Assembly (NCBI GenBank): GCA_037447655.1
Contig: JBBHKE010003558.1
Coordinates: 1-64,000, forward strand
DNA length: 64,000 bases
Source: Zygnema cylindricum
Lineage: Eukaryota > Streptophyta > Zygnematophyceae > Zygnematales > Zygnemataceae
Direction: 5' to 3'
Shown here: positions 29,691 to 64,000 of the stretch, piece after piece
Layout of the letters: every line of letters begins with the position of its first letter
Numbering within the stretch: the first letter of the stretch is position 1
The notes under the pieces: generated by a model
What the model was told of the DNA's origin: nothing
Database searches by the model: none
What the model saw: the letters and a program-made list of their open reading frames with translations, nothing else
Made by a program: the position numbers and the translations under genes

Positions 29691-29692
29691 AT

Positions 29693-31149: not shown

Positions 31150-31153
31150 AACG

Positions 31154-34158: not shown

Positions 34159-34163
34159 GTCTG

Positions 34164-35140: not shown

Positions 35141-35141
35141 C

Positions 35142-41502: not shown

Positions 41503-41507
41503 TCACC

Positions 41508-42404
41508 TGTAGCCGGTAGCTTTGTCAACTTAGTTTAGGACTAGTGCTAAGGTATGTTGGGTTTGATACGTATTTAAACATGTACACGTAGGTTTTTCCA
41601 TTTAACAAGATTACGGTTTATAAGGCATAGAAACAATTGTACTATTAGTACTAGACGAAATAAATAGTACGGACATTTGTTTCGACAGTCCGTATTAAAT
41701 ACCGATATAAATCAGACGGCCGTGGTAAGCGTCGGCTTTGCGGAAAAGACAATTTGGCGGTTTGCGGACTCCGTCTCTCTAGATGACATGTGGCAATATC
41801 ATACAGGTTAACGGAATCTCTGGAACGGAAGACAACAAAACTGGATGTGACAAATGTCGCATTATGGCGACGTCGTACACTGTCCGTACAGAAAGTACTC
41901 TGGCATTTGTACCTTATTGTACGGTACAGTCTCGTGATTGGTCAGTACCTTAGTACTAGGGGGTTTAGAAAGGGGTTTAGGTCTTATAATATTTTGGGTA
42001 GGCAGCCGCCTTTCCCACAGAGCATCTTGTATAAAAGACCAACTTTGGCCCGCCATAACTATTAACTCGGTTGACCATTTTCAGTGATTATTTTCGCTCC
42101 GGACTCCACGGAGTCCATGCTACATAGGGATGTAGTCGGTCTGAGTTGTTTGCCTGCCTGGGTCGTTACATTTTTAAGGGAAAGTCAAATTGGGTGAATG
42201 TATCCAAATCACATATTCTAGCTTTGCATTTTGTGGTGGAACTGAGCAAACATAAAGTCTTGTTTCACAGGGTGAAGCTTTAATGGGGTTTTGATTGTCA
42301 AGGGGTTAATCATTTGGGTTTATATAAACTTGGAGTCGGCACTATCTAGATTACCTTTTTTTGATCTGCAAATTTTGTGTGGCAATGGAGCCCATATAAT
42401 TTCA
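41508..42404 (+). repeat. Cop-5 5' LTR, part 2
   Basis: Resumes after the TCACC copy and ends CCCATATAATTTCA. Contains a TATAAAAG box at 42030-42037. Confidence 0.88.
42030..42037 (+). promoter_or_regulatory. TATA box of the Cop-5 LTR
   Basis: TATAAAAG in the 5' LTR; the 3' LTR has TATATAAAA at 55812-55820 at the equivalent place. Transcription would be expected to start about 30 bases downstream, defining the U3/R border. Confidence 0.6.
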
Positions 42405-44610: not shown

Positions 44611-44614
44611 TGTC

Positions 44615-44804
44615 GTGCATGAGGGGAAAAGCAAGAGCGAACATGCATCCCAACCAGCAAAGTCATGCTCCAGACATATATATAAACGAAAATGAATGAG
44701 AAGGGAAAAATGTATATACAACATGCAAAAGAATAAAGGTGAAGATGACCAAAAGGAATAAAAGGGAAGAATACTCCCCTAGCGTGAAGTGACCCCTATA
44801 ATTC
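44615..44804 (-). repeat. Gypsy-1 terminal block B2 (190 bp)
   Basis: Plus-strand GTGCATGAGGGGAAAAGC to CCCCTATAATTC; direct copy of 45745-45933, differing by a few bases and one A. It lies outside the LTR-like block A2 and ends four bases (GACA on the element strand) before the target duplication. Confidence 0.93.
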
Positions 44805-44807
44805 AGC

Positions 44808-45738
44808 TGTCCGTGGGAGGGGCAGCCGGATCCGGATGCTTCTCCACACGAACTCCAATCCACCACTTCCCAAATATGACACAAGTTGGAGGGAAACCTT
44901 CCGGACTTGGCTTTGACCGCGTGCGATTAAAAGCGTGGGCAGAATTACAAGGGAGAATGTATGTAAACTATCTAGCCTCTACAGCTAGCTAGCAAAAGAA
45001 AAGAAAAACTTGAGCAATTGGTGAGAGAGAGACAGTAAGAGAAAAGCTCCGCTGCCAAGAGAAAATACTTGTCCAAAAGCTAGAAATTCTAAGTCTAAAA
45101 ATAGACTTAGTATTAGCTACGCTACGCCTACACAAACCATAACCTAAGTCTAGGCTAGTTTACATGAACGAACTACTTAAGATGTTTGGCCAATAGGCGA
45201 CCAACATCGTCTGCCTTACGCCTAACAAAATCCACCGTCCGAGGGTAAAAACCCTCCCTAACTACATGTACGCGCGAACCTACATGGGTTCGCGACTTAA
45301 ATATATAATGGTACATTGAAGCGTCGCTGGTACTCCCGGATATCGCGCTGCATCGCCAAACGATACTTCACGTATGTACTCCAAAATTGTGTACCTGCGT
45401 ACGAAAACGAAACAATAGTACGCACGCAATTAGTACATATACAAATAGACGTGTACGCGAATCGCGTACACGTCAAAGATAAGTGAACCAATGTGCCTTT
45501 GCACGTGCGAACATAAATCACGCACGCGCGCAAAAATAATTGTGCGTGCATGTATGATTTCGTTCGAGCGTGTCGAATATCGCGTGCGCGTGCACAACAT
45601 CGTGCGTGCGTGCAAAATATCGTGCACGCATACAAAATATCGCTCGCGCGTGCACAATATCATACGTGCGTGCGCAATATATCGTGCCCGCATGCAAAAT
45701 ATCGTGTATGCCCGCGACCGACACCATGCGGCATGATA
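44808..45738 (-). repeat. Gypsy-1 LTR-like block A2 (931 bp)
   Basis: Direct copy of A1 at 54450-55379. Plus-strand limits TGTCCGTGGGAGGGG and GCGGCATGATA. High similarity between A1 and A2 suggests a relatively young insertion. Confidence 0.93.
45565..45720. repeat. CG-rich tandem repeat in A2 (about 24-bp period)
   Basis: About six units of a GCAAAATATCGTGCGCG-like motif with alternating purine/pyrimidine (CGTGCGCGTGCAC). On the element strand it lies about 20-175 bases inside the LTR, where U3 control sequences are expected. Same array at 55206-55361. Open frames on both strands here are artefacts. Confidence 0.85.
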
Positions 45739-45744
45739 GTTGTA

Positions 45745-45933
45745 GTGCATGAGGGGATAAGCAAGAGCGAACATGCATCCCAACCAGCAAAGTCATGCTC
45801 CAGACATATATACAAACGAAAATGAATGAGAAGGGAAAAATGTTTATACAACATGCAAAAGAATAAAGGTGAAGATGACCAAAGGAATAAAAGGGAAGAA
45901 TACTCCCCTAGCGTGAAGTGACCCCTATAATTC
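45745..45933 (-). repeat. Gypsy-1 internal block B1 (189 bp)
   Basis: Between the PHD coding end and A2, separated from A2 by GTTGTA. Direct copy of B2. On the element strand it contains GCTAGGGGAG, which could serve as a polypurine tract. Confidence 0.9.
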
Positions 45934-45947
45934 CCCCTCCCAGCTCC

Positions 45948-46214
45948 TTAGCCTACGGTGGAGCTGGTCAAAACCGTTGAGAGCTCACGACAGCCATGGC
46001 AAAACCAATGGCCAGCTGGCACAGTTGTCAATGGAGGAACTAAACACTCCATGTGGAACCCTTGGTTACAATGGTCGCACAAGAGCATGGAAGTCTCGCC
46101 GTCTGCTCGCATGCAAATTGTACATTCCGTCGCCTCCGTGATCGGCATTCTCATCGGATCCATATCATGTGACAAATCCAGTAAGTAACAAGGTGCACAG
46201 TTCTTCGAATGCTC
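45948..46214 (-). pseudogene. Gypsy-1 PHD finger at the C-terminus of the polyprotein
   Basis: PHD fingers bind histone H3 tails and read Lys4 status. After one TGA (46215-46217) the integrase frame continues in phase and encodes a full C4HC3 finger at 45990-46124: CTIC, then CDHCNQGFHMEC, then WFCHGC. The spacings are C-x2-C-x11-C-x2-C-x4-H-x2-C-x14-C-x2-C with the conserved Trp two residues before the last Cys pair. It ends at a stop at 45948-45950, 15 bases before B1. Chromoviruses carry a chromodomain at this place; here a PHD finger may guide integration to particular chromatin (inference). The leading TGA may be a mutation, since Gypsy-2 has no stop there. Confidence 0.9.
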
Positions 46215-47883
46215 TCAAATTATCCTTGTATCCGCACCCTGCAAACCCAACATCCCATTAGCATCCATTTCCACCACACAAAGAATGAGTGGTGAAACAT
46301 CCGTGTCCAAAGTGTCGAAAGATTGTCGTCGAAGGTACACGTAATCTCCGACTTGGTAAGATTTCTGTTGAGGCTTGTAACTACCACTTCGCGTGGTGGC
46401 AAAGCGCAAAGTATCTCGATGTTGGGCAATCTGTAAATTATCAAAAGCCATGGGCATCTCACGAGCGAAAAGCAAAGCAAGGCGAGTTAGTTCTTCCAAG
46501 AATATGGTGTTAGACATTAGGGGCAAAGGTAAACTTGCTGCTTTATGAATATTCCGACCGAGCAAGGGTGCTCGACCGAAGAGAATATAGTACGGGCTGA
46601 AATTAGCCAAGCTAGCGTGTACGGACATCCAGTATCCCATGGTGATATAGCCCAAGGATTCGTCCCAGACGGAGATGTGTTTCTCCAAACAATGCTTACG
46701 GAGAGCCCGTTTGAAATTTTGGACAGCTCGTTCCGCCAAGCCATCGGCTTGTGGGTGATCACGACTCGTCCGACGATGATCAATTAAAGCTTCATCCAAC
46801 ATCTCTTGAAATTCCCCGCGGAACTCCGTACCCTGGTCCGTGAGAACCTCCGCAAGAGCTCCAAAAGGCATGAGAACGTGCTCTTTAAAAGTCGCGGTAG
46901 TCAATTTAGCGGTCTTGTGGGGAAGAGCAACCACTTCTACCCACTTGCTAAAATTTTCAATCATTATCATGATGTATTGTTTCCCTTTTCGAGATAAGGG
47001 AAACGGTCCGGCGAGATCCACGGACCAGCGATAAAACAATCCTCTGATGGGCAATGGCTGTAGTGACACTTGCCGATTAGAGAAAGAGGTGCGTAACCGG
47101 TCCCATGTGGCGCATTTGTGGAGAATGGCCGCCACATCCGCTTGCATTCCGGACCACCAATACCGTGCCTGTACAAGGCTCAAAGTACGCTTGGTCTCGT
47201 AATGGCCAAGCTCGGTATGTATCTGTTCAATCAAGGATAAGCGCTCGGTTGGCCGAGGGACATGTCGATGATTGCTGTCCGCTAGCAATCGAACTAAAGA
47301 TCCGCCGAGCCACAGATAATTTTTGGCTCGTTTCTTTACTCTGTCTTCCTCCTCCGCGGTAGTACCGGGCAGAAAGGTTTGAAAGGAGAGGAAGACGATT
47401 AACGGGCCGTCGCGCCATGGATCCGTGGCCGGCGTAGGGTGAGGAATAGAAGAGAGACAGTAAGTGATATAGGAACCGGCCGACATGGCCTGTACCTCGT
47501 CCTCGTCGAAATCTTGCCGGACACTGTTATCGATGGTCCGAGGTAGTGGATTCCGAGAAATCTCGTCGGCGTTCAAGCTTAACAAACCGGGCCGATGGAT
47601 GATCTCAACGTCGTACTCTTTCAAAATTAAAGCCCATCGGGCAAGCTTCCCTGAAAGCTTATTGTTGGTCATCAACCAATGAAGGGATTGATGGTCAGTT
47701 AGGAGCGTGAATGGCTTGTCGTGAAGATAATGTCGAATATGAACGATACCCCATACCGCGGCGAGACATTCACCCTCGTAACTATTGTAATTAGATTCAG
47801 CACGGTTATTGCTCCGGCTAGCATATGCCACTACGTATTCCTCTCCATTCAACTCTCTTTGCGTTAAAATAGCCGCAATGTGT
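46215..47883 (-). pseudogene. Gypsy-1 RNase H and DDE integrase
   Basis: A 545-residue frame (start 47852) preceded in phase, after a TAA, by TDFGKPHIAAIL at the RNase H start. RNase H shows GEEYVVAYASRSNNRAESNY, SYEGECLAAVWGI (Glu) and LLTDHQSLHWLM (Asp). Integrase follows: zinc domain HTELGHYETKRTL and HKCATWDR (second Cys of the pair replaced by Trp), then the catalytic core with Asp in YRWSVDLAGPFP, Asp in VLTDQGTEFRGEF and Glu in PQADGLAERAVQNFKRAL. The tail has VGDYVYLRRQSFDT. The DDE triad is complete. Confidence 0.92.
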
Positions 47884-49352
47884 GGCTTCCCGAAATCGGT
47901 TTATAGGCAAAAGGGAAGCTTGTGGTTAGGAGGTCGAAGAATGGGAGCGCTGGAGAGGGCGGTTTTCAATTTTTGAAACGCTTCTACTTGGGCGGGTCCC
48001 CAAACAAAAGGCACTTCTTTTTTGAGAAGGTCATTGAGGGGAGAAGCAATCGTACTAAAATTCAGAACAAACCGACGGTAATAATTGGCTAGTCCGAGAA
48101 AAGCCCTCAGACTAGTGAGATCCGTGGGGGGCGGCAGTTTGGTGATCGCCTCTACCTTAGCTTCCAAGGGAGTGATGCCCTCGGCCGAAATAAAATGGCC
48201 AAGATAGGGCACTCCCTCCCCACCGAAAGTACACTTGGCTAGGTGACACTTCAGCCCGACTTTCTTTAACTCACGGGGAACCCACTCAATATGGCGGGCG
48301 TGCTCCTCAACCGTGGCGGAAGCGATTATCAAGTCATCGATGTAGCACCGGGCAAATTTACATCCACACAGCACCGAATCCATGACTTTTTGAAACACGA
48401 CGGGTGCGTTCTTAAGACCGAAAGGCATGACTACCCATTCCCACCAACCATCACTGCCCCAAAATGCAGTTTTATGCCGATCTTTTTCCTCGATTTCAAT
48501 TTGGTTAAACCCTTGACGCAAGTCAAGAATGCTAAAGAACTTTGCACCACCTACATGGTCAAATATTTCCTCCGCTAGTGGCATAGGGTGGCGGTCTTGA
48601 ACGGTCCGGGCATTGAGCTCTCGGTAGTCCCCACACAATCTTCGCTCAGTAAAATTTCCGTCGAAATCTTTCTTCCTACGCATGACTGTGGGGGCGGCAA
48701 AGGTGGAATCCGACCGATAGATTAGACCGGCTTCTTCCAATTCTGCGCATCTTTTGTCCACCATCTCCCATTCCATTTCAGAGAGACGGTGTTTCGGCTT
48801 AAAGATAGGTCGATCGTCTTCAAGGTCGATTGATATTTTGTAAGTAGAATGACGTCCAAGGTCATTCATGGAGAAAGCAAACGCATCTATATGACAGGTG
48901 ACTGTGTCACTTAATAGTGCCTGTTCCGCCTTTGTGAGATTGGAACTGAACTTCCACTTGGGCGTCTCGGGACTCTTGATAGCGAAAGCTTCCATGGCCT
49001 CAGCAAATGCAATTTGCTCATCGGCGATGAGTGAGTGGCCTAACTCGTATTTTAGCGGAGTTTGCTGCAAGCAGTTCACCCAATGGTGCCAGCTACGAGT
49101 CGTAAATGCAGCTGTCCAGTGCAGTGCTGGACCAAGAAACGATGAAATTGTGGATTGAACGGCTGTATAGGCCAAGATTTCCCAAGACATATGACTGGGG
49201 TTGAGGAAATTATAGATGGAGATGTCCTTAACCGTTGGTGTGAGAGAAGGGAAGAGAAAAAACTGAAATGGATTTCCCTTGAGACTAGGAGAGGTGCGAG
49301 AGGAAACAAGACGTGAAGGAGCCGTCTTATTCCCCCCCCCAGCTGGTTGCAC
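47884..49352 (-). pseudogene. Gypsy-1 reverse transcriptase
   Basis: A 483-residue open frame whose N-terminal part still belongs to the methyltransferase-RT linker. RT motifs: VDKRCAELEEAGLIYRSDS, LCGDYRELNARTVQDRHPMP, FSILDLRQGFNQIEI (first Asp), TAFWGSDGWWEWVVMPFGLK, CYIDDLIIAS (catalytic pair), YLGHFISAEGITP and LRAFLGLANYYRRFVLNFS. The order is typical Ty3/gypsy with all catalytic acids. It ends at a TAA in PFCL followed in phase by RNase H; relatives read through, so the stop is probably a mutation. Confidence 0.92.
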
Positions 49353-49394
49353 GGGGTGATTCTGTGCATAACGACCAGCAACAAGGCCGAGACC

Positions 49395-50420
49395 TAAGAC
49401 AAATGATAAAGATTAAGGATCCATGACCCTACCCAACAAAGTGCAACGCTGTCTATTCGTAAGGCCGAGGGCAGCGGTAGTGCCTGGAATAAAATGCATG
49501 AGATGCTCCGTTTCTGTGGCCATAGGCTCCTCTAACTCTCCAGTGACATTATTCCGGAGCATACCTGGACCGTAATGAGAGAATGCATGAGAATTAGGGT
49601 AAGACACTTAAGTAGGAAGGGACTTGAGGGGCTGGCTAAGTACATTAATGTTGTAATTCGGAGGGTAGTCAGATTGGACACATGATTGGACTTGGTGGAA
49701 GGGAAGCAAAGCAGTCGCAATGTCTATAGTTGGAGGTCGTACCAACAAATTAGCTTCACGAAGACGACCAACATCGATTAGGTTCGTCCATTTGGAGCGA
49801 ACCCGATGTGCCAAGGACCGATGCCGAGCGGCATCAATAATTAGCGGGGGTCCGATAAGGTGTTCTATGCGCTTATAGTCAGCCAGAACTGTTGGCCGAG
49901 GATCATTATAAGCGGCGACGTTCTCTAAAATGTATCCGACAGGCTTGGCCATTGTTTGAAGAAAATGAAGGACCCTCAAAAGCTCAAAAAACAATTTGGT
50001 ACGGGGATCCGCCAAACCAAGACCTTTGCCGGCCCGAACATGCCTTGACACTCCCACCCTGCGAAAACAAGGTCTATCAGTTCGACATCCCGGAGATGAT
50101 GATTATTAATTATGCGGATGTCTAATGGAAGAGAAGTGTGCATGTGTATAAAGGCTGACTTTGGAAACAAGTGTGGATATTGTGAATGCAGGAGATTATA
50201 GTGGTGCAATTGTGCTTTCCTAGCTAATGCATCAATTTCTACCGCATAGTAGTGACGGATGAGAAGACCATTCCGTAAACATGACTATAGTGAAGTTCCA
50301 ATCCCAGCGAATAGGTCAAGAATAACGACCCTGTCCAAATGAGGACTCAACTGTACAAGCTTCCAACTGATTGGAAGGAAACCCGAACGATCGGTTGCAA
50401 CCGTCGGTATAGGAGGGATG
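49395..50420 (-). pseudogene. Gypsy-1 C5-cytosine DNA methyltransferase domain
   Basis: Transfers methyl from S-adenosylmethionine to cytosine C5. Minus-strand motifs in family order: I, RVVILDLFAGIGTSL (about 50290-50335); II, YYAVEIDALARKA; IV, LIDLVFAGWECQGM with the catalytic Cys codon at 50048-50050; VI, VGYILENV; VIII, IDAARHRSLAHRVRSKWTNL; then SYPNSHAF and a C-terminal MATETEHLMHFIPGTTAALG and QRCTLLGRVMD, as in the last motifs of eukaryotic DNMT3-like enzymes. The family Pro before the Cys is Glu here. It is damaged by a TAG after motif I, a shift directly after motif IV, a TAA near 49608 and a TAA near 49411. Located between protease and RT in one collinear polyprotein. No separate target-recognition domain is obvious. 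Confidence 0.9.
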
Positions 50421-50471
50421 GTCGTTAATGGAATAGATAATGTTGAATTATAAAAATTTTCAAAGATGTGA

Positions 50472-51646
50472 GAATTAATCTAGAAACCCGGTTCCGCAAA
50501 GAGCTCAGGTAAGGGAGAACTATCCGGTATAATTTCTTTGGCCGAAAGAGAGTGAAGAATTTCCTCCCCAACGGAGTTCCCCAAAAATGCAGGAAGAGCC
50601 GTGGCCGAGTGAGCCATAGTGGGCAAAGGTCGGCGGGCTGAAATGAGAGGAAGGAAGATTTTGCGCTCCGGAAAGTGTGTCGGTCGGTAAGAAAATGTTT
50701 GGTCGTGCATGTCCACACCACCATTAATTCGGAATATAACATCTTGACCCACCAAACACTCATAGTCGTCACATTTAGTGACTAATGGTCTGACACCAAT
50801 TTCAACGTACTTTTTTTTAGTTCTTGTCTCAAACCGAAAGATGAGCGGGTCCTTTGTGATTCCGAGGACCGGCTCCGTGGTCCCAGCCGAAGTAAGTGGT
50901 TGCCTGAAGCTTGTCTGCTGTCAGACCAAGCTTGAGCGCAAATCCGTATCCGAGGATCACGGTTTGGCCCCGGTGTCCATGAGAGAAAGAGTGGGGTGAA
51001 CACCGTTCACTAAGAATGATCCCCGTGAGTTATCAAGGAAACTGATATGGGGATTGAGATTACGACGCTCCTCCGTAGTAACGGGTTGAACCGCTGAGAG
51101 ACTAGGATTTAACAGCAGAGCCCTCAAAGCGACTGCCGCTGCGACCTCATCAACGAGGGGAACGGCTTTCGGTACATCCTCCAACATCGCTGAAAGAATA
51201 CTTAATCGCTCCTTTACCCGATGATCCTCATGAATAGTGCCATCCAATATGGTCAGTGCCTCTGCTACGATGGTATGAGCTGTGTCCGGTAGGGAAGGCA
51301 GAGGCTCTTCGGCAAATGAGAGTGGGAGACGAGAATTTTGTAATTTGCCCACTCGGTTATGGTCTGCTGAGCCTTTTTCAAATGTGGCCACCCGTTGTTT
51401 GACGTGGGAATCCCGAAGGGTTCGCCCGGCCAACAACGGCATGTGGACAACGGTCCTGGCCATCCCATTAAACTGGGGTTTCATTTCCGCCATGAAAGCT
51501 GCAAATTGCTCTTTCATTATGGCTGCCATTGTGGCTTGAAGCTTGGCCTTCTCTCTCTCTACGAGAGATCTTAGGGGGAGCTTCCTCTTTCCCGGTCTCC
51601 TTAGGCGGAGTGACTGGTTTCGCGAAACGGGCCGGAATTCCACCAT
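50472..51646 (-). pseudogene. Gypsy-1 aspartic protease with N-terminal linker
   Basis: The frame 50957-51646 carries a linker (ATMAAIMKEQFAAFMAEMK) and then FLVNGVHPTLSLMDTGAKP, the retropepsin active-site D-T-G-A. After a one-base shift it goes on VILGYGFALKLGLTADKL, and after a second shift CLVGQDVIFRINGGVDM, the C-terminal strand of retropepsins. It links zinc knuckles to the methyltransferase. Catalytic residues are intact but the frame is broken twice. It would process the polyprotein in the particle. Confidence 0.85.
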
Positions 51647-51839
51647 TCTTTATCTGATTTTGATAGGTGAAATTAGGGTCCTTGATGTGGCACCGATGGA
51701 CATAATGTCCCGTTTGGTGGCAATGAGTGCAAGTGGCCGCCTTGTTAGGACACATGCGAGCATTGTGCCCGGTTTTTCCACATCGAAAACACATTCGGTT
51801 TCCGGGACCAGCAGGTGGAGTTCCCATGGCTGGCGTCTT
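51468..51839 (-). pseudogene. Gypsy-1 nucleocapsid part: two zinc knuckles
   Basis: In phase with Gag after one TAG at 51840-51842. Two CCHC knuckles follow each other: CFRCGKTGHNARMC and CTHCHQTGHYVHRC, both C-x2-C-x4-H-x4-C, RNA-binding units of Gag. Past about 51570 the correct reading moves to another frame, and the rest of this frame (ISRREREGQ and on) is out of phase. The plus-strand frame at 51543-52040 is its shadow. Confidence 0.9.
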
Positions 51840-52715
51840 CTAGGGCCTATTGGGAGGCCATGGGTTTTTAGGTGGAGGAGGAGATGGATTAACCGGTTCT
51901 CTGTGAGGAGCTTTGGAACGCTCATGGGCGTCCCACCACGATGTCTGCATCTCATACTCTACGGCGTATTGAGCGGCTTGCTCAAAGGTGAATTTCAGTC
52001 CATACATCTGGCTGAGGTGGTTTTGGATAAACCTCTTTGATGGACCTGGAAACTGTCGGACAAATTTCAGGACAGCCTCCGCATCGGACATGAGGTCCGG
52101 TAATGCCTCTCGCAAAGTTTCTATCCGAGCTTGCAAGGCAGGAGCAGTTTCACCTGGCTTACGCTCGAAGTTCATCAACTCTTTGATCTGATCCGGATTT
52201 TGCATCCGGTACTCCTCTAGGAGGATGTCAAACATGACAGAGAGAGGGTCACGTAAAGGAATGGTTCCCCCCGCTCTAGTTGGGACCGCTGCTCGGGCAG
52301 CCACTGCATACTGACGAGGAACTTCGGAGATAGATGGATACAACTCGTCTCCATTAGCATCTAATAGCGCCGGTCTCGCGGCCTGATATGGGATATCCAC
52401 CTGACCGACGACTTCCGGTAACCCCGCAAAGGGAGCCACGTACTCTGTTATCGCAAGAACATCCTTGTACTTGCGAGTGTAGAGAGTGAGGGCCGTACCA
52501 CGGAGGTATCGACCAAGAAGGGAAAAGGCGACACGGAGGTCAAACCTATCCTGATATCTAAAGGCTAGATCTCGCATTTCCGTGTCGTATAACATCCGGA
52601 AATGCGATAAGGACATAGTATCTTTTAACCCGGAAAAGCAAAAGTGCATCTTACCCATGGATCCCTCTGAAGAGGAAGCCATGTCGTAAGGAGGCGGATG
52701 TGTCGGTTGTGCCAA
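51840..52715 (-). CDS. Gypsy-1 Gag (291 aa)
   Basis: Particle-forming protein, open from ATG at 52715. The central Ty3/gypsy Gag region is recognisable from YRMQNPDQIKELMNFERKPG, TAPALQARIETLREALPDLM and LKFVRQFPGPSKRFIQNHL, with a Pro-rich C-terminus (NPSPPPPKNPWPPNRP) leading to the zinc knuckles. It ends at a TAG that separates it from the in-phase knuckles; in related elements these are one protein. The nearest upstream in-frame sequence is non-coding leader. Confidence 0.85.
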   Translation of the reverse strand: MAQPTHPPPYDMASSSEGSMGKMHFCFSGLKDTMSLSHFRMLYDTEMRDLAFRYQDRFDLRVAFSLLGRYLRGTALTLYTRKYKDVLAITEYVAPFAGLPEVVGQVDIPYQAARPALLDANGDELYPSISEVPRQYAVAARAAVPTRAGGTIPLRDPLSVMFDILLEEYRMQNPDQIKELMNFERKPGETAPALQARIETLREALPDLMSDAEAVLKFVRQFPGPSKRFIQNHLSQMYGLKFTFEQAAQYAVEYEMQTSWWDAHERSKAPHREPVNPSPPPPKNPWPPNRP

Positions 52716-54449
52716 AGCTGGGCTGGTAGGGAACTAACGAGTGTGAGGAGTTGGAAAGGTTTCCTCCGGGAAGTCTTCTTCGGTCCCCTCTAGGTATGAC
52801 CTAGATGAAACCGAGGATAATGAGCACGTGGATGTCAGACCACACCGTAGTGACGGCGATCTGCGATCAACAATCGGATCGGACGTGGTCAACGATTCGG
52901 GAAAATCCGAATGATCTAACTGTTGAGAACGGTAAAATGTACTGCCTCGGGTAGAACCGGATTGGTAAGGAAGGTCATCTCAATCCATGGGCATAAACAA
53001 AGGGAGAACCCTTGACTATGATAATGAAATGTTTCGCACGACCTAACCGAGATGTAACACATGTGAAACCAATCCACTCGTCCAGCCAACACACTCAGTC
53101 ACTATCAAGACCCGATGGTCGTATCTAGCAAGAAGTCGGTTTACCACAACCTCTACCCTGCAAACAGTTGGCAAGGCCAAAGGGCCAGATCTATAAAAAC
53201 AAGAAAATTGTTATCCAAGCACCCTTGGGTGCAGATCTACAGCAACACAGACGGGAAAAGGTCTACATTGTGCCACCCACGGCAAGATCTAGCAAGAAAT
53301 CCCACTCTAGATAGTCACACGAAAATCCAAGGCCACTTGGGGCCAGATAGCATGTAGAGAAAGCAAGAAAATGCAAGTGTTCAATAAGAAAGGTTCACGA
53401 TAGAACCAATCCACACCGCTCCCCTACACGAGTGTCCACACTAAATCGGAACGCTCCTGCACGCGGAAGGAATCGACTACTTACAGACACCTTTAGTACT
53501 TTGGTGAGCACTAAGGGTGAACTTGACTTGTTCGAAGCAAGTCGGGTTTTGCAGAGCTCCCTGGGATGAAATTTGCTCCACGAAACTCCCTCCGAGCGTT
53601 CTCCGAAATAACCCTCCGCGAGACCTGTTCCGTACCGTGAAGATGTACGCCGGGGAATGTTAGGGAACCAATGGAAGGGAAAAAATAACGTAGGGTGGAA
53701 GGAAAATAACAAATAAGAAAAACAAATACGATAGATAAAAAAAGGGTGTTAGAATAAAGTCGGAGGCCGCTCAAACTCCAGATATACATCCAAACTTGTG
53801 ACCACAATAATCCAAAGCCAGCAGCCAAACTTAATTCCACTTGAAAAATCCTAATTCCAAAGCCAAACCCTAATTCCAGAGGGCCAAAACTCAAAATCTG
53901 CAGCCAAGGACTCAAAATCTGCAGCCAAGGAATAGAAGGATACCGACCTAAGAACTAGAAACAAAAGGAATAAACCCTAAATCTCCTGCAACCCTAATTC
54001 TGCAGCCAAAACCCTAATTCTGCCTCCGAACCCTAATTCTGCAGATTAACCCTAATTTTGCAGATTAACCCTAAATTTGATACAAAATTTAGGTTCAACA
54101 CGAAAGCCAAGAAATATAGTGGCAACAGAATAAGAGACAAAGATTGAAAGAAAGAAATAGCCGAAAACAAAAACAAAATGTTTTTTTTTTATATAAAATA
54201 AAATTTATATTTTTAATAGATATTTTTATTTTTATTTTCTTTTGGACAAGAATACTCAGCCAAAAGGTAGCCACTAGGCTCTTGGGTCTTCAATATATTC
54301 TTTACAAGAGTTATCTTATAAGAAAGCAACGAAGCAAGATAAATAATTCCAACCAAAAACAAGGAAAACTCCAAATTCGGCCAAATTTACCCTTCCATTC
54401 CCAACCGAAAATACAAACAACACAAATACAAACACCCAAACCGTTCAGC
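52716..54449 (-). other. Gypsy-1 5' leader
   Basis: 1.7 kb between A1 and Gag without a convincing gene. Near 53875-54078 there are repeated words CAAAATCTGCAGCCAAGGA and AACCCTAATTCTGCAG (about 20-bp period, six to eight units). Right after A1 on the element strand comes GCTGAACGGTTTGGG; I see no canonical TGG-initial primer site there. Confidence 0.6.
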
Positions 54450-55379
54450 TGTCCGTGTGAGGGGCAGCCGGATCCGGATGCTTCTCCACACGAACTCCAA
54501 TCCACCACTTCCCAAAAATGACACAAGTTGGAGGGAAACCTTTCGGACTTGGCTTTGAGCCGCATGGATTAAAAGCGTGGGCAGAATTACAAGGGAGAAT
54601 GTATGTAAACTATCTAGCCTCTACAGCTAGCTAGCAAAAGAAAAGAAGAAACTTGAGCAATCGGTGAGAGAGAGAGTAAGAGAAAAGCTCCGCCGCCAAG
54701 AGAAAATTCTTGTCCAAAAGCTAGAAATTCTAAGTCTGAAAATAGACTAAGTATTAGCTACGCTACGCCTACGCAAACCCTAACCTAAGTCTAGGCTAGT
54801 TCACATGAACGAACTACTTAAGATGTTTGGCCAATTGGCGACCAACATCGTCTGCCTTACGCCTAACAAAATCCACCATCCGAGGGTAAAAACCCTCCCT
54901 AACTACATGTACGCGCGAACCTACATGGGTTCGCGACTTAAATATATAATGGTACATCGAAGCGTCGATGGTACTCCCGGATATCGCGTTGCATCGCCAA
55001 ACGATACTTCACGTATGTATTCCAAAATTGTGTACCTGCGCACGAAAACGAAACAATAGTACGCACGCAATTAGTACATATACAAATAGACGTGTACGCG
55101 AATCGCGTACACGTCAAAGATAAAAGAACCAATGTGCCTTTGCACGTGCGGACATAAATCATGCACGCGCGCAAAAATAATTGTGCGTGCGTGTATGATT
55201 TCGTTCGAGCGTGTCAAATATCGCGTGCGCGTGCACAACATCATGCGTGAGTGCGAAATATCGTGCACGCATGCAAAATATCGCTCGCGCGTGCACTATA
55301 TCATGCGTGCATGCGCAATATATCGTGCGCGCATGCAAAATATCGTGCATGCCCGCGACCGACACCATGCGGCATGACA
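54450..55379 (-). repeat. Gypsy-1 5' LTR-like block A1 (930 bp)
   Basis: Plus-strand limits TGTCCGTGTGAGGGG and GCGGCATGACA; on the element strand TGTCATGCCGC to CACACGGACA. No B block lies outside it: the TTCC duplication follows immediately at 55380-55383. The CG-rich tandem array is at 55206-55361. Confidence 0.93.
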
Positions 55380-56192: not shown

Positions 56193-56707
56193 TTCCCGCC
56201 GCCAGATCGAAAAAAGATTTTGATCGTAGCCGTCATAAAAACTTGCGCGGTATTTGTTGCGCTATCGAAACAAAATGCGCAGTATCTGTTTCTTGTCCGT
56301 ATCGTACTCCGTATTTTTCATAACTGAATGTATGCATTCCGTATATAGTCGTCGTTAAATGAATTTGTCCACATGTAATTGTTTATATACTTATGAAACC
56401 CGATATCACTCAACACTAGCTTTAGACTAAACGGATAAAGCTATCGGCTATTTGGAACCAGAACGGACGGTAGGTACCAAGATCAAGTCATGGGTCTATC
56501 AGGCCAGTTTTTGGTAAATCAACCCATCTACTGCATGTCTTCTTCTTGATAGGATAGGCAGCCATTGCTCTAACTCCCTCTCCAACTTTCAGTGATTGCG
56601 ACGAGTGTGGGAGTTGAAGTGAGGAGTTAGAGGCAGACAGCATCGGCTTCTTTTCTGCAATTCATTTTAGACCTAGAAAATACTAAAAAGAACCATTAAT
56701 TTGTACA
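56193..56707 (-). repeat. Cop-6 3' LTR, part 2
   Basis: Resumes after the second ATCCT and ends TTAATTTGTACA, i.e. TGTACAAATTAATGG on the element strand, next to its polypurine tract (complement of CTCCCTTTATTTT). Confidence 0.85.
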
Positions 56708-56720
56708 CTCCCTTTATTTT

Positions 56721-56888
56721 CTAGTCACCTTTTAATTTCAGGCCACACTTCTCCCAGCTGAAAATAAGCTTAGGGGAAGGCAAAGGTATGGTCATCATAT
56801 CTGCTACAATTTCACTATCTGGTCTATATTCTAAATTGATTATTCTATCTTCTACCTTTTCCTTTACCAAGCTAAGTCTAATGTCCAT
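56721..56888 (-). pseudogene. Cop-6 RNase H, C-terminal end
   Basis: Minus-strand MDIRLSLVKEKVEDRIINLE, YRPDSEIVADMM and PSPKLIFSWEKCGLKLKGD, aligning with the last 55 residues of Cop-4 RNase H and ending at a TAG. It is cut at MDIR by Gypsy-2; the frame upstream (to 57014) is Gypsy-2 terminal sequence, not protein. Confidence 0.88.
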
Positions 56889-56896
56889 TGTCGAGC

Positions 56897-57191
56897 GTGC
56901 CTGATAAACGTGAGGGAAAGGCCCACGGCCCGAAGTCGTCAGCATTGGAGTCTTGCAAATAAACCCCGAATGCGAATGCTTCACAAAATGATAATCATGC
57001 CCGGTGCTGCCCACATCCCTCCTATAGATATGCAGGAAAATGGGAGAGAGATACTTAGAAAGGGAATATGGATGAGGGCAAGGGGAAGGTGAAAGTTATC
57101 CCCTCCCCCTTCTCCCCCCCCCCCCCCTCTGGCTGGGGGAAGGGATTTGGGCCTCTATAATTGGGCTGATATCCCAATTTGCTATGTCAAC
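56897..57191 (-). repeat. Gypsy-2 terminal block B2 (295 bp)
   Basis: Plus-strand GTGCCTGATAAACGTGAGGG to CTATGTCAAC; direct copy of 58367-58661 with scattered substitutions. Includes a poly-C run near 57112-57127. Confidence 0.9.
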
Positions 57192-58356
57192 GGGAAGTCT
57201 ATCGCACTTGTTCCCTCAAAACCAGCTGTCGTGATCTAAGGGGTTTCAGTTTACTCCGGAACAGTAACTCCAAAGCAAAGAGAACTCCAGATGAAGACAC
57301 AAATGCACTACCACGTAGATATATATATAAATAAATATGATTAGTTTTCCAGATTTATCAATATCACCTTGCCCAAAAAAAAAGAATAAAAGATAGAAAA
57401 TGTGAAATGTAGCTAAGCAAGCTTAACATACCCCAGCAATCAACGATGACAATTAGAAAAAGGTGACCCCTCTCCCGATAGTATCGTCAAAAGCTATGGT
57501 ACTCGTGCAACCTTCGGTGTCCGCAGCTCGGAACCTACCAGACTCTTCTCGGTTCTAAACAGCAAAAATGTCCAAAATCTCCCAAAAGCAAGATAGTGCC
57601 AACTATCCGCCTGGACTGTGATTTCCACAAAAGACAGATCCAAAACCAAGATGGTAATAGAGTCGAAAAAACACAAAGATTCTCCAAAAGAAAGTTTGTT
57701 GGAATTTTTCAGGGTTGTATCATGAGACAGTACTGAAAAGCAACCTGTCTCATTCGATCCCAAGTGCCTTATTCATCAAAGTTTGTCAAATTGCAGGTCC
57801 AAAAGTCAAAGCTACGCTATTAACGAATGAGAGGCAAGCAAGTGTAATTGAACTAACACAAGACAAAATAATCCGTACTACACTAGGGGCAATTTTTTTT
57901 GCTCCGGAGTGCGGCTAAATCCGCGGCCGGAAGTAATTATTCGGTCCACTATTATATAACAAAGTCCTGAAAAGGACACCAACTTGCCATACTTTGACCT
58001 AATGTAATTAATGGACAAAATGTCAGCTGAGTTTGAACTAAATTCCTACTGATGGCTACCAGCATAACCTTAATGCAAATCCGGAAAATGACGTGGCAAT
58101 CCACAATGTACCCCCCACTGGGGTTGGTTGCAAATGGTCTCGGTAACGAAATTGCAATCTTTGAGACGCTAGCACTTTGTCGGTCGGCCTCCGTTAGGCG
58201 CCAAATAAATTGCATTCCGCTCAGTTTAGGAAAAACAAGGATCTCGTCCGGCTTGGTGCACTCACTCCTCCGTACTTTGAAGACCGTACATGGTAAAAAA
58301 AACCCGAAAATCATTGGTGATATAAAGGTATGCCTGAAAAGCACATGAGCTTGACA
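57192..58356 (-). repeat. Gypsy-2 putative LTR-like block A2 (about 1165 bp)
   Basis: Non-coding sequence lying between the two B copies, in the place of A2 in Gypsy-1, ending ...CTTGACA on the plus strand as Gypsy-1 ends ...ATGACA. Its partner A1 would be outside the window, so the LTR nature is inferred from position. Confidence 0.65.
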
Positions 58357-58366
58357 GCTGTCAAGT

Positions 58367-58661
58367 GTGCCTGATTAACGTGAGGGAAGGGCCCACAGCC
58401 CGAAGTGGTTGGCATTAGAGTCTTGCAAATAAACCCCGAATGTGAATTTTTCCCAAAATGATGATCATGCCCAGTGTTGCCCACATCCCTCCATAGATAT
58501 GCATGCAAAATGGGAGAGATGCTTGGACAGGGAATAGGGATGAGGGTAAGGGGAAGGCAAAAGTTATCCCCTCCCTCTTCCTCCCCCCCCCCTGGCCGGG
58601 GGAAGGTATTTGGGTCTTTGTAATCGGGCTGATATTCCAATTTCCCCCCCTCTTAGTCAAC
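58367..58661 (-). repeat. Gypsy-2 internal block B1 (295 bp)
   Basis: Direct copy of B2, separated from A2 by GCTGTCAAGT. It contains a run of C near 58584-58593 and ends about 37 bases before the PHD-like coding end. Confidence 0.88.
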
Positions 58662-58698
58662 CGTGAATAAGTTATAAAAACAATTACCCGCTCCATTC

Positions 58699-58842
58699 GC
58701 AGTTCCCACAGAACCGGATGCTGGAGGGTAGAGGGTGTGGCTCCTAAGAGGAGGGTATACAAGCTGAATGCCAACACTGACCACTTTGATTGCAGACGAA
58801 TATGTCGTGCAACTGGGAGGGCTGATTGCAAGCTGATGAACA
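58699..58842 (-). pseudogene. Gypsy-2 PHD-like finger
   Basis: Follows integrase in frame. CSSAC, then VCNQSGQCWHSAC, a TAG at 58744-58746, then in phase RFCGNCEW. The His, the Cys after it and the final C-x2-C align with the Gypsy-1 PHD finger; the second Cys of the C-x2-C before the His is Ser, and an extra Cys lies two residues before the His. The preceding linkers also match (NVAPCHLQGL against NCAPCYLLDL in Gypsy-1), which supports common descent. With a missing ligand and a stop it is probably not functional in this copy. Confidence 0.7.
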
Positions 58843-59834
58843 AAAAGGGGGATCGGCAAAGTAAGTTAAGTGGAAAGTGGGTTCATCTTCCAATCCTTGA
58901 AGATGGCAGGGGGCCACATTGATCTGATTCTCTTTAATTTGTCGACCATCCTTTCCCTCCAATGTAAGAACCCCTTTGTTGGAAACCTCAACCACTTTCA
59001 AAATTACTCTCCCGGCAGAAATATCCAGCATGTCCTTCTTCTGTTGCATCCGATATACAAAGTCCCCCGGCATAAATCGTCGATGCCGAGGCACATAATT
59101 CTCGCTCCGGCGTTGAGAATACCACAACTGATCTCGGTGTTGAGCCGCCTGCAAATTGCCCATGGCGAGAGGCATCTCTCGGTGGAATATCTTGGCTCCT
59201 TCGGCGATCAGTTTTTTTACTGTCCCCTTGTCATCCATCTCCGAGAGGACCACCGCTTGGGTCAATACAGTTCCGCGCAAGATGGGATGCCGTCCAAATA
59301 TAATGAAATAAGGGCTATAGGAGTGGAGAGAAGCATGCCTGCTCAATCTGTAACCCATAGCAATCCAAGGCACTTTTCTGTTCCACTCCCCCAAATCTTC
59401 TTCAACTGCATATTTTCGTAGTGATTGCTTCACTTTCTATACGCACCTTTCGGCCAAACCGTCGGCTTGAGGGTGGTCACGACTGGTCAGCCGATGGTCG
59501 ACTAGGCATTTTTCGAAGAGGTTGGAAAATTCTTCAGCATATTCGGAGCCTTGGTCGGTTAGAACTTCCGCAGGCGCTACGAATTTGGCTAAAACCCTTT
59601 GCAAAAATGCATCTGCAATTGCCATGGACTCCTTCCGAGTCAACACCACAAACTGGATCTACTTGGAAAAATGTTGTATCATGACCAGCACGAAATGGTT
59701 CTCGCGCTTGCTGGTTGGAAGAGGTCCTAAAAGATCCAACGACCACCGATAAAACATCCCCCGGATAGGAAGCAAATAAAGCTCAGTCCCGCCCTTTTTG
59801 TCAAAAGGTGCCTTAACTCGATGGAGATTGGAAA
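58843..59834 (-). pseudogene. Gypsy-2 integrase
   Basis: Ty3/gypsy DDE integrase. The first Asp lies in YRWSLDLLGPLPTSKRE (about 59720-59770), followed by VLVMIQHFSK, a stop near 59660, then FVAPAEVLTDQGSEYAEEF with the second Asp, and PQADGLAERCV with the Glu. A stop at about 59440 precedes KQSLRKYAVEEDLGEWNRKV, MGYRLSRHASLHSYSPYFII and the C-terminal PGDFVYRMQQKKDMLD. The last frame is 58744-59433. The zinc domain is poorly preserved near 59800. Confidence 0.88.
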
Positions 59835-60544
59835 TCAGAGTTTCTCAGTTAGAGGGGGGAGGAACCACTTTCCTTGTGCCGTCTGACCATTTCCGAAGGA
59901 GAACGCCTCTTGCTCAATCATAGGCGCCATCAGGGTCTGTACTCGGGATAATTGATTTCCAGTTAAGTGGGGAAGAGGCGACCCCTGTTTGATAGATTGG
60001 AGAGCATCAAGGTCGTTCCAGATGTCCTTCCGTCCGGCCCCTATGGGCGCTTGCCCCTCCACGTCGGCCGAGAAAGTTGACAGTTCCCCCCCTGATTGGG
60101 GAAGCGAGATGAAAGGGGAGGATGCTCGAATGATTACCAGACTAATCTCAGGGTCCTCATCATGCCGAGCCCTGGTATAATCCATGGTGGAGGGATCAGG
60201 ATTTCGACTAAGTCCGTCGGCATTCCCATGGATTTCCCCTTCCCTATGAACAATGTTGAAATCATATTCCTGCATTATAAGAACCCATTCAGGCGAGTTT
60301 GCCGGTTAACTTACTATTTTCCATGATCCATTTCAGGGGTTGGTGATCCGTAATCAAGGTGAAATGGACTCCGTATAAATAAGGCCAGAAATGTTGGATG
60401 GCCCAATCCGCCGCGAGTTACTCTCCGTGGTAACTGCTATAATTCCCCTCTGCCTTGTTGTTGCTCCGGCTGGCGTAGGCCACCACATATTCAGCTCCGA
60501 CATCATCCACTTGAGCCAGAACCGCTCCCAATCCAAACCTACAA
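59835..60544 (-). pseudogene. Gypsy-2 RNase H and connection to integrase
   Basis: RNase H begins STDYCRFGLGAVLAQVDD (Asp), then EYVVAYASRSNNKAEGNY, a stop after SSYHGE, LITDHQPLKWIMENSK and, after a shift, MQEYDFNIVHREGEIHGNAD with ADGLSRNPDPSTMDY. The linker to integrase is long and variable. Best frames are 60418-60963 (its end) and 59835-60275. Confidence 0.85.
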
Positions 60545-61486
60545 TAATCAGTAGAAAGGAGGAAAGGTCTTTGGTGATCAGGCATCTGGAGCACGGGGTG
60601 CTGTTTCAAAGCATCCTTCAAGAACTGGGAGGAGATCTGTTGTTCTTCGGCCTTGTGCCACTCTTGGTCTTTCCGCAATAGCTGGTTAAGGGGCTGGACG
60701 TGACTACTGAACTCTGGGATAAACCGCCGATAGTAATTGGCCAGACCCAGAAAGGTGCGAAGGGCCGAGATGTCCTGTGGTGGGGGAAGGGCGTCAAGGG
60801 CTGCCACCTTGACCATGTGGGGACCCACAGTCGCGGGAGTCAGCTCATGTCCGAGGTAAATGATTTTCTGTACCCCCCTAAAATGCCTTTGCCCGGGTGA
60901 CATTTCAAACACGCTGCTTGGAGTGCCTGGAGAACGATCTGGATATGCCCAGGTGTTCCTCAAAAGTCTTTGATATTATAATAACATCATCATTATAGCA
61001 CCGGGCTCAATCGATTCCTCGGAGCGCTTCGTCCATTGTCTGTTGGAATTTTGCCGGTGTATTCTTAACCTCGAAGGGCATGTAAATCCATTCATAAAGT
61101 TTGGAACTAGCCCAAAATGCAGTTCTCTCCTAATGCTTCGGTTCCATGGCAATCAGGTGGAAACCATTCTTCATGTCCAGAGTGGAATATATAGTGGCGC
61201 CAGCAAGAGAGTCGAATATCTCTTCCGGAGTCAGCATCCGATACCGGTCAGAGATGGTGGTCGTGTTCACCATGTGATAATCTCCGCACATCCGGAAATC
61301 TACAATCTTCTCGGACGAGTCTTTCTTTGGAGGGAGAACTGTCGGGGAAGCAAACCCATGAAGTCCGGTACTTTCCTGAACGAATCTGGCTTCCACCAAA
61401 GTCTGGACTTTAGCCGTGATGAATTCCTTTTCCTTGAAACTGAGAGGATACTGCTTCTGCCAAACAGTAGTCGTCTTGTCGATCAA
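60545..61486 (-). pseudogene. Gypsy-2 reverse transcriptase
   Basis: From 61486: VQTLVEARFVQESTGLHGFA, FRMCGDYHMVNTTTISDRY and YSTLDMKNGFHLIAMEPKH (first Asp), then stops. The catalytic site near 60990-61005 reads CYNDDVIIIS, so the usual Val/Ile of Y-x-D-D is Asn. After further breaks come KIIYLGHELTPATVG, LRTFLGLANYYRRFIPEFSS and PLNQLLRKDQEW. Ty3/gypsy type, non-functional through several stops and shifts. Confidence 0.88.
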
Positions 61487-61853
61487 ATGGATTCAGAAAG
61501 GTGTTCCTTTGTAAATACCGTCATATGTTTCTGACCATGAGAACACCTGCTTGTTTTCGTCCAATAGCTCGAGAGCTGCGCCTTCTGCTGAGGATCCAAT
61601 TTCTCCCCTAGGGTCCAATCCATTTTCCCATGCTCTACAACAGCCCAAGCCTCTGGCGGTCTACCCAGAAGTTAATGTCGAATTCCAATCCTAGCGGTGG
61701 ATCTGCCTCTACCCATCCGGCTAGGACGCTGCTGCAGACAACTTCCGCTAAGTTGTCGCCATCTGAGCCACCGCCCCTCCCAAATGAGAAAACCTGCGGT
61801 GGTGAAATGTGAATTTGTCTTCTTTCTCTCCCCCCCTCAAGCTGCAAAGTTGC

Positions 61854-63058
61854 CTACATCGCTAACAAATGAGGAGCTTGAACGTAAACAACCATGGATT
61901 TCGGGGACTTGAGACTAGAAAAGCCGAGTGTATGCTTCAGTACCCATGTGATCGAATTCAAGTCCATACTCTGTCCAATTAGGTTGCACCTATAAAGTTC
62001 TGAGATACTTGGTGCTGCTGTGTTCCCTTTATGAAATCCCATCGCTTCTTCCCGTTCTGCAATCGTCGCTGTTGTCCAGATTCCTGCCATACTGTAAGAA
62101 ATCATTCCCACTGCTCCTTTCTGATATGCGTGACTATGAGGGAAAGAAACCAAAGTCGTGAGTGCTCTCCGTGGTAAATCTGGTTTGTTGCACCGAAAGA
62201 AAAGAGAGCGGTCTGGTCGCGTCATAGGGGTGGCCATCGTGCCTTCCCCAAGTATTTGCTGCACCAAATTCTGAGGGTCGGGAATTTGCTTGTCTAACAG
62301 TCGTCCGAGTACTGGAAGCGGGATCATATTGGTCCAATATGCCTTTACTCTATGTGCAGGGGATCCCATCTGTGCGGCGTCGAAAACCAAGGGAGCTCAT
62401 AAATTCCGGGTTACGTGATTCTAGTTGTCCGCAACCTGTTTTCTTTTATCATCTCTGGGTTGACATTTTCCAGAATGTACCCCACCGGTGTGTCCTGATG
62501 TTGATCAAGGCACGTGATTATTTCGATCATCCGGTGAAATGTTCCACTTCTGCGGTCTTGATGCCCTTTTCCTTGTCTCGCTAGGGAGTACCCTTGACAA
62601 GGCCAGCCTTCTAACGCCAAATCCACTCTTCCCAAACTGGCTAGATGAGGCGCAAGGATGTTGTCTATATTTTGGGGAAGACTTCAGTGAGCTGTGGAAA
62701 TAGCTTTCACTGAAAGCTGTTGAGGATATAGGTGATGAAGTTGGTGGAGGCGGTGTTCGCTGACAGCTCGCGCCTCGGGTGAAATTTCCATAGCTGCGTA
62801 TGACTCGACCAGATATCCTGTTTTCACAACCGCTTCCAAATCGCAACTAATTCCCGAAAATAGAGATAAAATACGTAGTCCATAATCGGGGACTGCCAAT
62901 GACACTACATGTCGATTGAACTCCTCGTTACCAAACTTAGGTTTGGAAGCATTAGACAGTTGTGTAGAAACGGCTTCCTTCAATGTTAAGGCTGAAAATG
63001 CCTTATCCACTCCCCGCCGAAGTTTTGCTACCTGGCACAATCTATTCTTATATTCCAC
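61854..63058 (-). pseudogene. Gypsy-2 C5-cytosine DNA methyltransferase domain
   Basis: Same enzyme family and place as in Gypsy-1, with the canonical catalytic motif. Motif I, YGLRILSLFSGISCDLEAVV, and II, YAAMEISPEARAV, lie in the frame 62684-63058. Motif IV, VDLALEGWPCQGYSLARQGK, has its Cys codon at 62597-62599 and is followed by HQDRRSGTFHRM. Motif VI is TPVGYILENVNPE, VIII is VFDAAQMGSPAHRVKAYWTN, and the C-terminal part reads FPHSHAYQKGAVGM, then AEREEAMGFHKGNTAAPSIS and LYRCNLIGQSMDLNSITWVL. The frames are 62684-63058, 62411-62635 and 61854-62390, separated by a shift between motifs II and IV and stops after VI. The motif VIII style (DA...HR...W.N) resembles eukaryotic DNMT3-like enzymes more than bacterial ones, by eye. 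Confidence 0.92.
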
Positions 63059-63279
63059 TTCCCACCGCTTGGAAATTGGGAATTGCTAGATTTCTTTGGC
63101 GATATCTATAGAACTGCCAAACAGTTCCGTCGGAGATGATGTAGTGTACACCGAGTAGCAACCAGACACTGGGACATTTGTCTTCCCCCGGTTCCATAAA
63201 TCCAAAGGAACCACCACTAGGGTTCCTTCCGGATTTTAGGGGTCCCGAACGGTACATTGTTCCTTCCACACGTTAAAAC

Positions 63280-63832
63280 TCACATTGAGCAGGTCCAAGT
63301 GGCCATTCCCAGCAGAATTTCGAATTGAGTCCCTTCCACCACCAAGAAGGGAAGCTCAATTTTCACCCGTTGGCCTCCATCATCAGAAAACTCGATTTCC
63401 ATGGCCTTGATTATTCCATGGATTGGTTGATTGCCGCTACTTACGATGCTTAAGCAGATATTGCTTGGGCAAAATTCAGGCCGAGGTTCCTCGGGCATTT
63501 TTTTGCAAAGCAGAGGTGGTAATGAGGTTGGGGAGAGCTGCGATGTCGACCACAGCGTCCTCGTATCCCCCGTAACCGTTGAGCGTCAAGTTCCCGGTCC
63601 GGTTCAGTATAATAGCCACTAATAAGGCTTTGTAGTCCCTATCCACTATAGGGGTTTTAGGATCGGTGGACAAAAATAATGCGATTGGCGGATTGGTCAT
63701 GTCTACCCCCCTCTTTCCAGAGTGGATCTCCTCTCCCAATGCCTGAATAAGGATTTCTTTAGACAGGTAATGGGAGGATGCTAGAGTCTTCACGTGTGTG
63801 AGGGCATAGGGCATGAGGTGTCGCACTAGCAT
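63280..63832 (-). pseudogene. Gypsy-2 protease region
   Basis: Frame 63476-63832: LTLNGYGGYEDAVVDIAALP then NLITTSALQK. This aligns with the retropepsin active site but reads D-I-A instead of D-T-G. Frame 63280-63498 continues GIIKAMEIEFSDDGGQRVKI and FLVVEGTQFEILLGMATW, the C-terminal protease strand that also precedes the methyltransferase in Gypsy-1. Between this and the methyltransferase, 63059-63279 is a degenerate linker. Confidence 0.75.
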
Positions 63833-64000
63833 GACAACCAGTTTCGGAATGGGAGTGTGGCTTTCGGTGAAGATGGGGATGAGTTCGGTTCTTGTAGATC
63901 TTGATCTTTTCCTTCTATCTCACTTTCGGAGCCTGAATCTTGGATTGGAGGTGTTTGGGGAGTGTTATTTTCCGGGCGTTTTGCCATATATCTCTCAAAT
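63833..64000 (-). pseudogene. Gypsy-2 upstream coding fragment at the window edge
   Basis: A minus-strand frame from an ATG complement at 63985-63987 reads MAKRPENNTPQTPPIQDSGS and an acidic, Ser-rich stretch, to a stop near 63830. It may be the start of a separate protease-pol frame or the tail of Gag; Gag proper is outside the window. Confidence 0.4.

Follow-up and report, generated by a model that had tools for sequence, protein, structure and literature searches.

Some members of the DNMT3 family of cytosine methyltransferases are located in retrotransposons (PMC12344493, citing the 2018 paper PMC5890265). In KnitGypsy-Dnmt3 of Klebsormidium nitens, an unrearranged DNMT3-class domain lies inside the Gypsy Pol of an intronless element, and the repeats follow the order A-coding-B-A-B, which is called typical of DIRS although the domains of the element are Gypsy (PMC5890265). 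SymbioDIRS-Dnmt3 of Symbiodinium combines a DNMT3-class domain in Pol with A-B-A-B repeats and a domain order that varies between families (PMC5890265). Here we analysed a window, the whole stretch of 64,000 nucleotides at positions 1 to 64,000 of contig JBBHKE010003558.1 (Zygnema cylindricum, assembly GCA_037447655.1), which holds an element, E1, that shares these features with both systems; unlike E1, which has a DDE integrase, SymbioDIRS-Dnmt3 has a tyrosine recombinase (PMC5890265). We are highly confident that E1 is a Gypsy-type retrotransposon of the KnitGypsy-Dnmt3 kind, with a DNMT3-class C5 methyltransferase between protease and reverse transcriptase (RT) and, downstream of the integrase, a PHD finger. 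Why a transposon should bear the very enzyme that hosts use for transposon silencing is a question raised by the 2018 paper (PMC5890265). E1 belongs to a rare kind of element that has already been published for one green alga. Our analysis widens the known host range, shows that the domain can stand at either of two places, and adds a PHD finger as a partner in several members and an unusual catalytic motif. The name KnitGypsy was found by our literature search in one paper only. The word PHD is absent from the main text of that paper, a statement that does not cover its figures and supplements, and DNMT3 does not occur in the main text of PMC5784723.

The DNMT3-class domain of E1 extends on the minus strand from about 50335 to 49380, between the protease region (51649-50480) and the RT (49412-47901). 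The evidence comes from a hold-out profile made of 45 aligned segments, namely of 43 related proteins (P0001-P0043) minus P0003, plus the relative L003 described below, and free of any window sequence. When run on all 2033 stop-to-stop window frames of at least 20 residues, the profile matched six: three belong to E1, and the other three to a further related element, E2. It matched nothing in 20 control windows in which two-base blocks had been shuffled. The relatives in the profile were reached via searches begun from E1 and E2, and the chain of finding is not independent. The E1 pieces occupy positions 21-101, 101-246 and 248-310 of 323, rising along the strand, showing the unrearranged DNMT3 motif order within a polyprotein and not the rearranged order of DRM. 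A DNMT3-class cytosine methyltransferase sits within the E1 coding region. Because open relatives carry the domain ahead of the RT as well (L003, P0027, P0031 and P0041), it is neither a chance match nor a one-off capture. A sequence-only reading of this DNA had recognised motifs I, II, IV, VI and VIII and a DNMT3-like C-terminal block in order, between protease and RT of a Gypsy element at 49395-50420. The motifs and their location are confirmed by our data, the span is correct within about 100 bases, and the published precedent that this reading cited exists (PMC5890265).

In fold and motif order the E1 domain is like animal DNMT3A/B, from which it differs by a Glu in motif IV and by its location within a retroelement polyprotein. 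A PDB search with the piece 49608-50102 placed DNMT3A first, weakly (E 0.009), while the E2 piece 61854-62396 gave nothing up to E 10. DNMT1 and CMT were not among the best 60 rows of the PDB profile matches, which is no proof against either. The NCBIfam dcm model matched below its cut-off (E 0.0015 for E1, 3.6e-10 for E2). No PWWP or ADD domain was matched. Searches of Rfam at gathering scores and of plasmid records gave no match.

Along the minus strand, E1 reads A1, a long leader, gag, CCHC, protease, methyltransferase, RT, RNase H, H2C2 and DDE integrase, PHD, G-tract, B1, A2 and B2 (table). The order RT-RNase H-integrase of a Ty3/Gypsy Pol, with a DDE integrase and the protease region upstream, is evident from the Pfam order and from collinearity with L003. 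The protease region itself has no Pfam match, and the gag-like frame has no match in L003. No tyrosine recombinase was found among the Pfam matches of the scanned frames, which contain a DDE integrase, and Pfam found no chromodomain after the integrase, at E values up to 1 for E1 and up to 0.1 for L003; a PHD finger stands there instead. Several stops and two or more frameshifts interrupt the E1 frames. In the methyltransferase a stop follows just after motif I and a frameshift just after motif IV, and there are two further stops; its last two pieces and the RT form one frame, separated by stops. E1 is a dead copy. To read the broken frames as exons is not needed, the relatives being single open frames. 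The leader contains, at 53972-54074, an array of 19-20-base units with the telomere-like AACCCTAA.

Table. Features of E1 and E2, in window coordinates (E, E value of the match; K2P, Kimura two-parameter distance)
Feature	Position	Strand	Remarks
E1, whole Gypsy-type element	44611..55379	minus	10,769 bases; termini TGTCATGC...GCACGACA
Repeat A1 (left end)	54444..55379	minus	95.8% identity to A2, K2P 0.045
Gag-like open frame	51840..52733	minus	gag part of P0040: 37% identity, E 4e-44
Zinc knuckle (CCHC) frame	51468..51839	minus	Pfam zf-CCHC 1.7e-4 (21.9 bits, cut-off 20.8); zf-CCHC_2 2.8e-5 (24.3 bits, cut-off 27)
Protease region, two frames (50957-51649, 50480-50920)	50480..51649	minus	weak P0040 matches (E 1.8e-6, 4e-14); collinear with L003 ORF1 at 26.5%
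DNMT3-class domain, motif I to IV	49979..50335	minus	hold-out profile E 6.7e-24 for 49979-50284; motif I read directly
DNMT3-class domain, after motif IV to VIII	49611..50102	minus	hold-out profile E 6.4e-39
DNMT3-class domain, C-terminal block	49416..49607	minus	hold-out profile E 1.6e-18
Reverse transcriptase frame	47901..49412	minus	Pfam RVT_1 1.2e-26
RNase H and integrase (H2C2, DDE core)	46215..47900	minus	Pfam RT_RNaseH 2.8e-29, Integrase_H2C2 1.8e-12, rve 1.1e-11
PHD finger	45948..46214	minus	Pfam PHD 6e-12; integrase frame continued past one stop
G-tract	45933..45941	minus	immediately ahead of B1; read directly; E2 alike
Repeat B1	45741..45933	minus	97.4% identity to B2
Repeat A2	44802..45738	minus	repeat comparison with A1
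Repeat B2 (right end)	44611..44804	minus	repeat comparison with B1
E2, second related element, continues beyond the window	56889..64000	minus	B1/B2 repeats; collinear with L003
E2 DNMT3-class domain, three pieces (62687-63085, 62414-62683, 61857-62396)	61857..63085	minus	hold-out profile E 1.2e-16, 3.5e-25, 4.3e-47

The 43 different proteins come from searches that returned 3, 36 and 13 matches, with about 8,000 candidates scored in each. A contig search added three matches, L003, L004 (Kribbella) and L005 (Streptomyces); of these, L003 was examined and proved to be a relative. L003 is a 9,285-base contig whose ends overlap by 127 bases and which is filed under a cyanobacterial metagenome-assembled genome. 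Because it encodes a Gypsy element, it is surely eukaryotic in origin, and the bin that holds it is probably contaminated. Its frame 1 (1162 residues, the start cut by the contig end) contains a gag-like part with CCHC knuckles, recognised by eye, then the protease (Pfam Asp_protease_2 7.8e-4, below cut-off) and the methyltransferase (6.8e-12). After a single TAG and in unchanged frame follow RT, RNase H, integrase and PHD (4.3e-10) in 1047 residues. At this junction (L003:3470-3510) CAATCA comes after the TAG; it matches CARYYA, the consensus for leaky stops, and gives a leaky-stop-like context. Given that P0004 and P0008 terminate at the same residues as frame 1 (...ALSATK), the methyltransferase in the L003 branch probably goes with Gag and protease, and the RT would need readthrough.

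L003 and E1 share 48% identity from RT to PHD (1010 columns), 26.5% on the protease side (388) and 40.5% in the methyltransferase (232). For P0040 and E1 the values are 43-49% for the methyltransferase pieces, 37% for gag, 36% for the post-protease stretch, 33% for CCHC and 26% for the protease, and these identities would indirectly support selection on the methyltransferase domain. Among the relatives, the source names include the liverworts Marchantia polymorpha (P0023, P0025, P0026, P0028, P0030) and Calypogeia fissa (P0021), and also Closterium (P0039, with a match from which the middle of the domain is missing). Like E1, the six liverwort proteins carry a DNMT3-class domain after gag- or protease-like sequence, as judged by eye, and in P0026 the start of an RT follows, again by eye. 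Their domains are 44-51% identical to that of L003, five of the six have GWPCQG and P0026 lacks the Cys. The literature matches listed contain no report of liverworts as hosts of such elements, nor of such elements with a PHD finger. The presence of relatives in Marchantia and Calypogeia makes the question of a transposon-borne methyltransferase accessible in a laboratory plant. P0003 resembles ordinary DNMT3. None of P0001-P0043 was recognised as a K. nitens sequence, and the likeness of E1 to KnitGypsy-Dnmt3 is one of features, not of identity. An IMG/VR scan with the domain alignment gave L001 and L002, which are not retroelements and which, by eye, are phage- or bacteria-type C5 methyltransferases; no relative came from a scan of this type that used the integrase frame.

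Two placements of the domain are seen. The methyltransferase stands ahead of the RT in one open frame in P0027, P0031 and P0041 (P0027 starts too late for a protease), while it lies between RT and integrase in P0035, P0037 and P0042, by eye after RNase H; in P0036 and P0038 it is ahead of the integrase. The earlier reading named, as one condition that would refute it, intact relatives without the domain at this place. Open relatives carry it there, ahead of the RT, and do not refute the reading, although in a sister lineage the enzyme sits between RNase H and integrase instead of between protease and RT. The integrase tree (10 rows) splits the two placements with 99/98 each, and a single change of placement suffices on this tree and on the domain tree. 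The latter has 44 rows, with P0032, P0033 and P0039 dropped for coverage and P0003 as the sole ordinary DNMT3. It shows E1 as sister to P0040 (100/98; 48% identity), and it unites the six liverwort proteins with P0020, P0022 and P0029 in one clade separate from E1 (100/100) and P0035-P0038, P0042 and P0043 in another (99/95). The tree program warns of long branches, including E1 and E2, and the deep forks are weak, so that with its sole ordinary DNMT3 the tree is compatible with a single capture as well as with several. Pfam detects the PHD finger in L003, P0035-P0038 and P0042; the PHD alignment was usable for E1, L003, P0036, P0038 and P0042 only.

The repeats of E1 have the order A-coding-B-A-B and do not form conventional long terminal repeats (LTRs) at both ends. 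That B stands beside the right-hand A as a stray duplication is unlikely, as E2 has the same B-A-B. Both flanks of E1 match a related uninserted repeat at 41503-42016 (97 bases at 90.7% and 421 bases at 89.1%). As these matches have four bases in common (41596-41599), the target was duplicated over 4 bp when E1 inserted; the duplication reads GGAA on the minus strand (TTCC). The combination of A-B-A-B order and target duplication is relevant to the question of how DIRS-like ends may arise from a DDE integrase. The G-tract is likely the polypurine tract. Repeat A contains CpG-rich tandem motifs of 20 and 60 bases (45576-45706 and 55216-55348), and its observed/expected CpG ratio is about 1.5.

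The catalytic Cys, the ENV Glu and the motif VIII Arg are kept in E1, but its motif IV reads GWECQG, with Glu for Pro ahead of the catalytic Cys. To our knowledge, Pro at this place is near-universal in C5 methyltransferases. In our census of 46 sequences, Pro-Cys occurs in 35 and Glu-Cys in nine (E1, P0027, P0031, P0033, P0035, P0037, P0038, P0040 and P0041), and the motif is missing in two (P0026 and P0039). The eight relatives with Glu lead us to reject decay of one copy as its cause, and at least five Pro/Glu changes are needed on a tree built without that column. Together with the PHD finger, this repeated change is a specific, checkable lead. It also gives some weight to the alternative that the domain has ceased to be a DNA methyltransferase, either altogether or in some lineages, and instead binds nucleic acid or methylates RNA, chiefly in the Glu-Cys lineages; the Klebsormidium enzyme was inactive in yeast (PMC5890265). 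We consider this alternative unlikely. Against it, among 43 aligned rows the catalytic Cys is present in 42 (one gap) and the ENV Glu and the motif VIII Arg in all 43; motif I has its Phe in 39, the other rows showing Cys (two) or a gap (two), motif X has its Gly in 38 and motif IV its Pro in 35.

It is quite unlikely, in our view, that the methyltransferase targets the host genome or silent element copies, and not the cDNA, with self-limiting transposition or a reshaped host methylation as the outcome. In yeast, two SymbioDIRS enzymes of dinoflagellates gave CG methylation of the DNA, and self-limitation and host effects are discussed by the authors; K. nitens, however, has an ordinary plant-like methylome although it carries such elements (PMC5890265). 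The PHD finger after the integrase may suggest chromatin binding. The repeats add only a hint: 11 of the 23 A1/A2 transitions and none of the one in B are in CpG context, in a repeat A that is CpG-rich and for which no expectation was computed, so that they hint at decay in a methylating host and are silent on the methylating agent. The proposal of the sequence-only reading that the element could methylate its own cDNA or new copies or rewrite host methylation is a tentative one: the copy in the window is dead, the Klebsormidium enzyme gave no methylation in a yeast test that its authors call inconclusive (PMC5890265), and the lineage of E1 has Glu for Pro. Chance capture of a host DNMT3 fragment at a single locus, or an assembly chimera, is refuted by collinear open relatives. 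Nothing was found in its favour, and about 40 relatives in all, E2 with the same order and the target duplication that surrounds the whole of E1 speak against it.

The explanation that we prefer, a Gypsy-type element of the KnitGypsy-Dnmt3 kind with the working and the integration route set out here, is probable as a whole. The methyltransferase would be made as part of the polyprotein, freed by the protease inside the particle, and would then methylate the double-stranded or circular DNA of the element before or during integration, so that a new copy arrives bearing host-like DNA marks. The PHD finger would anchor the integration complex where the chromatin bears one particular histone H3 tail. 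We advance this pair of roles, self-marking and tethering, tentatively, as slightly more doubtful than not. As for the route, reverse transcription would yield an LTR of order B-A with the G-tract ahead of B, joining of the ends would give a circle with two LTRs, and in it the DDE integrase would cut a palindromic B|A site within one LTR. Such a cut would give the A-coding-B-A-B order, the TGTC...GACA ends and the 4-bp target duplication. The B|A joint of E2 is the palindrome GACA-GC-TGTC, and the identical ten bases occur in L003 at 7051-7060. In E1 and E2 the G-tract stands directly ahead of B; in L003 it lies about 105 bases ahead of the palindrome. We regard this route via a circle opened at B|A as evenly balanced. 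One may further speculate that these elements are an ancient Gypsy clade of the green lineage, in which a DNMT3-class enzyme, with a PHD reader in several members, travels with a DDE integrase, with one placement change (protease-DNMT-RT versus RNase H-DNMT-integrase) and, in several branches including E1, a Glu-Cys motif IV unlike that of ordinary C5 methyltransferases, and in which the integrase opens a self-methylated DIRS-like two-LTR circle at a palindrome within the LTR. In this full form the idea is possible but rather doubtful.

Several observations weigh against the preferred explanation. The earlier reading had looked to a methyltransferase profile match, which the family profile gives strongly; Pfam PF00145 stays below its 22-bit cut-off on two of the three E1 pieces (10.6 bits, E 0.36; 13.6 bits, E 0.044), and over the six pieces of E1 and E2 one lies above 22 bits and three have no match. 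The activity of the enzyme may differ in E1 and the eight relatives with Glu for Pro. No methylation in yeast was obtained with the KnitGypsy-Dnmt3 enzyme, nor with human DNMT3B, and the authors call the test inconclusive (PMC5890265). The PHD finger is not universal: the Pfam matches of P0041, a polyprotein of 2072 residues that extends beyond the integrase, do not include it. Regarding the route, the B|A palindrome is decayed in E1, L003 has one copy only of the would-be repeats, and the left end of E2 is outside the window, so that its complete A-B-A-B order is not visible. Finally, none of three tRNA-iMet-like primer patterns is present in E1, E2 or L003, including 54400-54443 beside A1.

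E2 has the content and gene order of E1: pieces resembling a protease come ahead of the methyltransferase (in three pieces, with GWPCQG), and RT, RNase H, integrase and a decayed stretch of PHD sequence come after it; this stretch did not align with the PHD fingers of relatives. It is more decayed than E1. Its middle methyltransferase piece (62411-62683) is the one that passes PF00145 (30.5 bits, E 3.2e-7). The E2 repeats B1 (58359-58643) and B2 (56889-57180) are 85.7% identical, and what lies between them is taken as A2 from its position alone, since its partner would fall beyond the window. A Copia-like remnant at 56686-56888, with an inverted match to 40270-40472, adjoins E2, and several degenerate Copia-like elements, their frames judged by eye, lie on both strands at 24283-40437.
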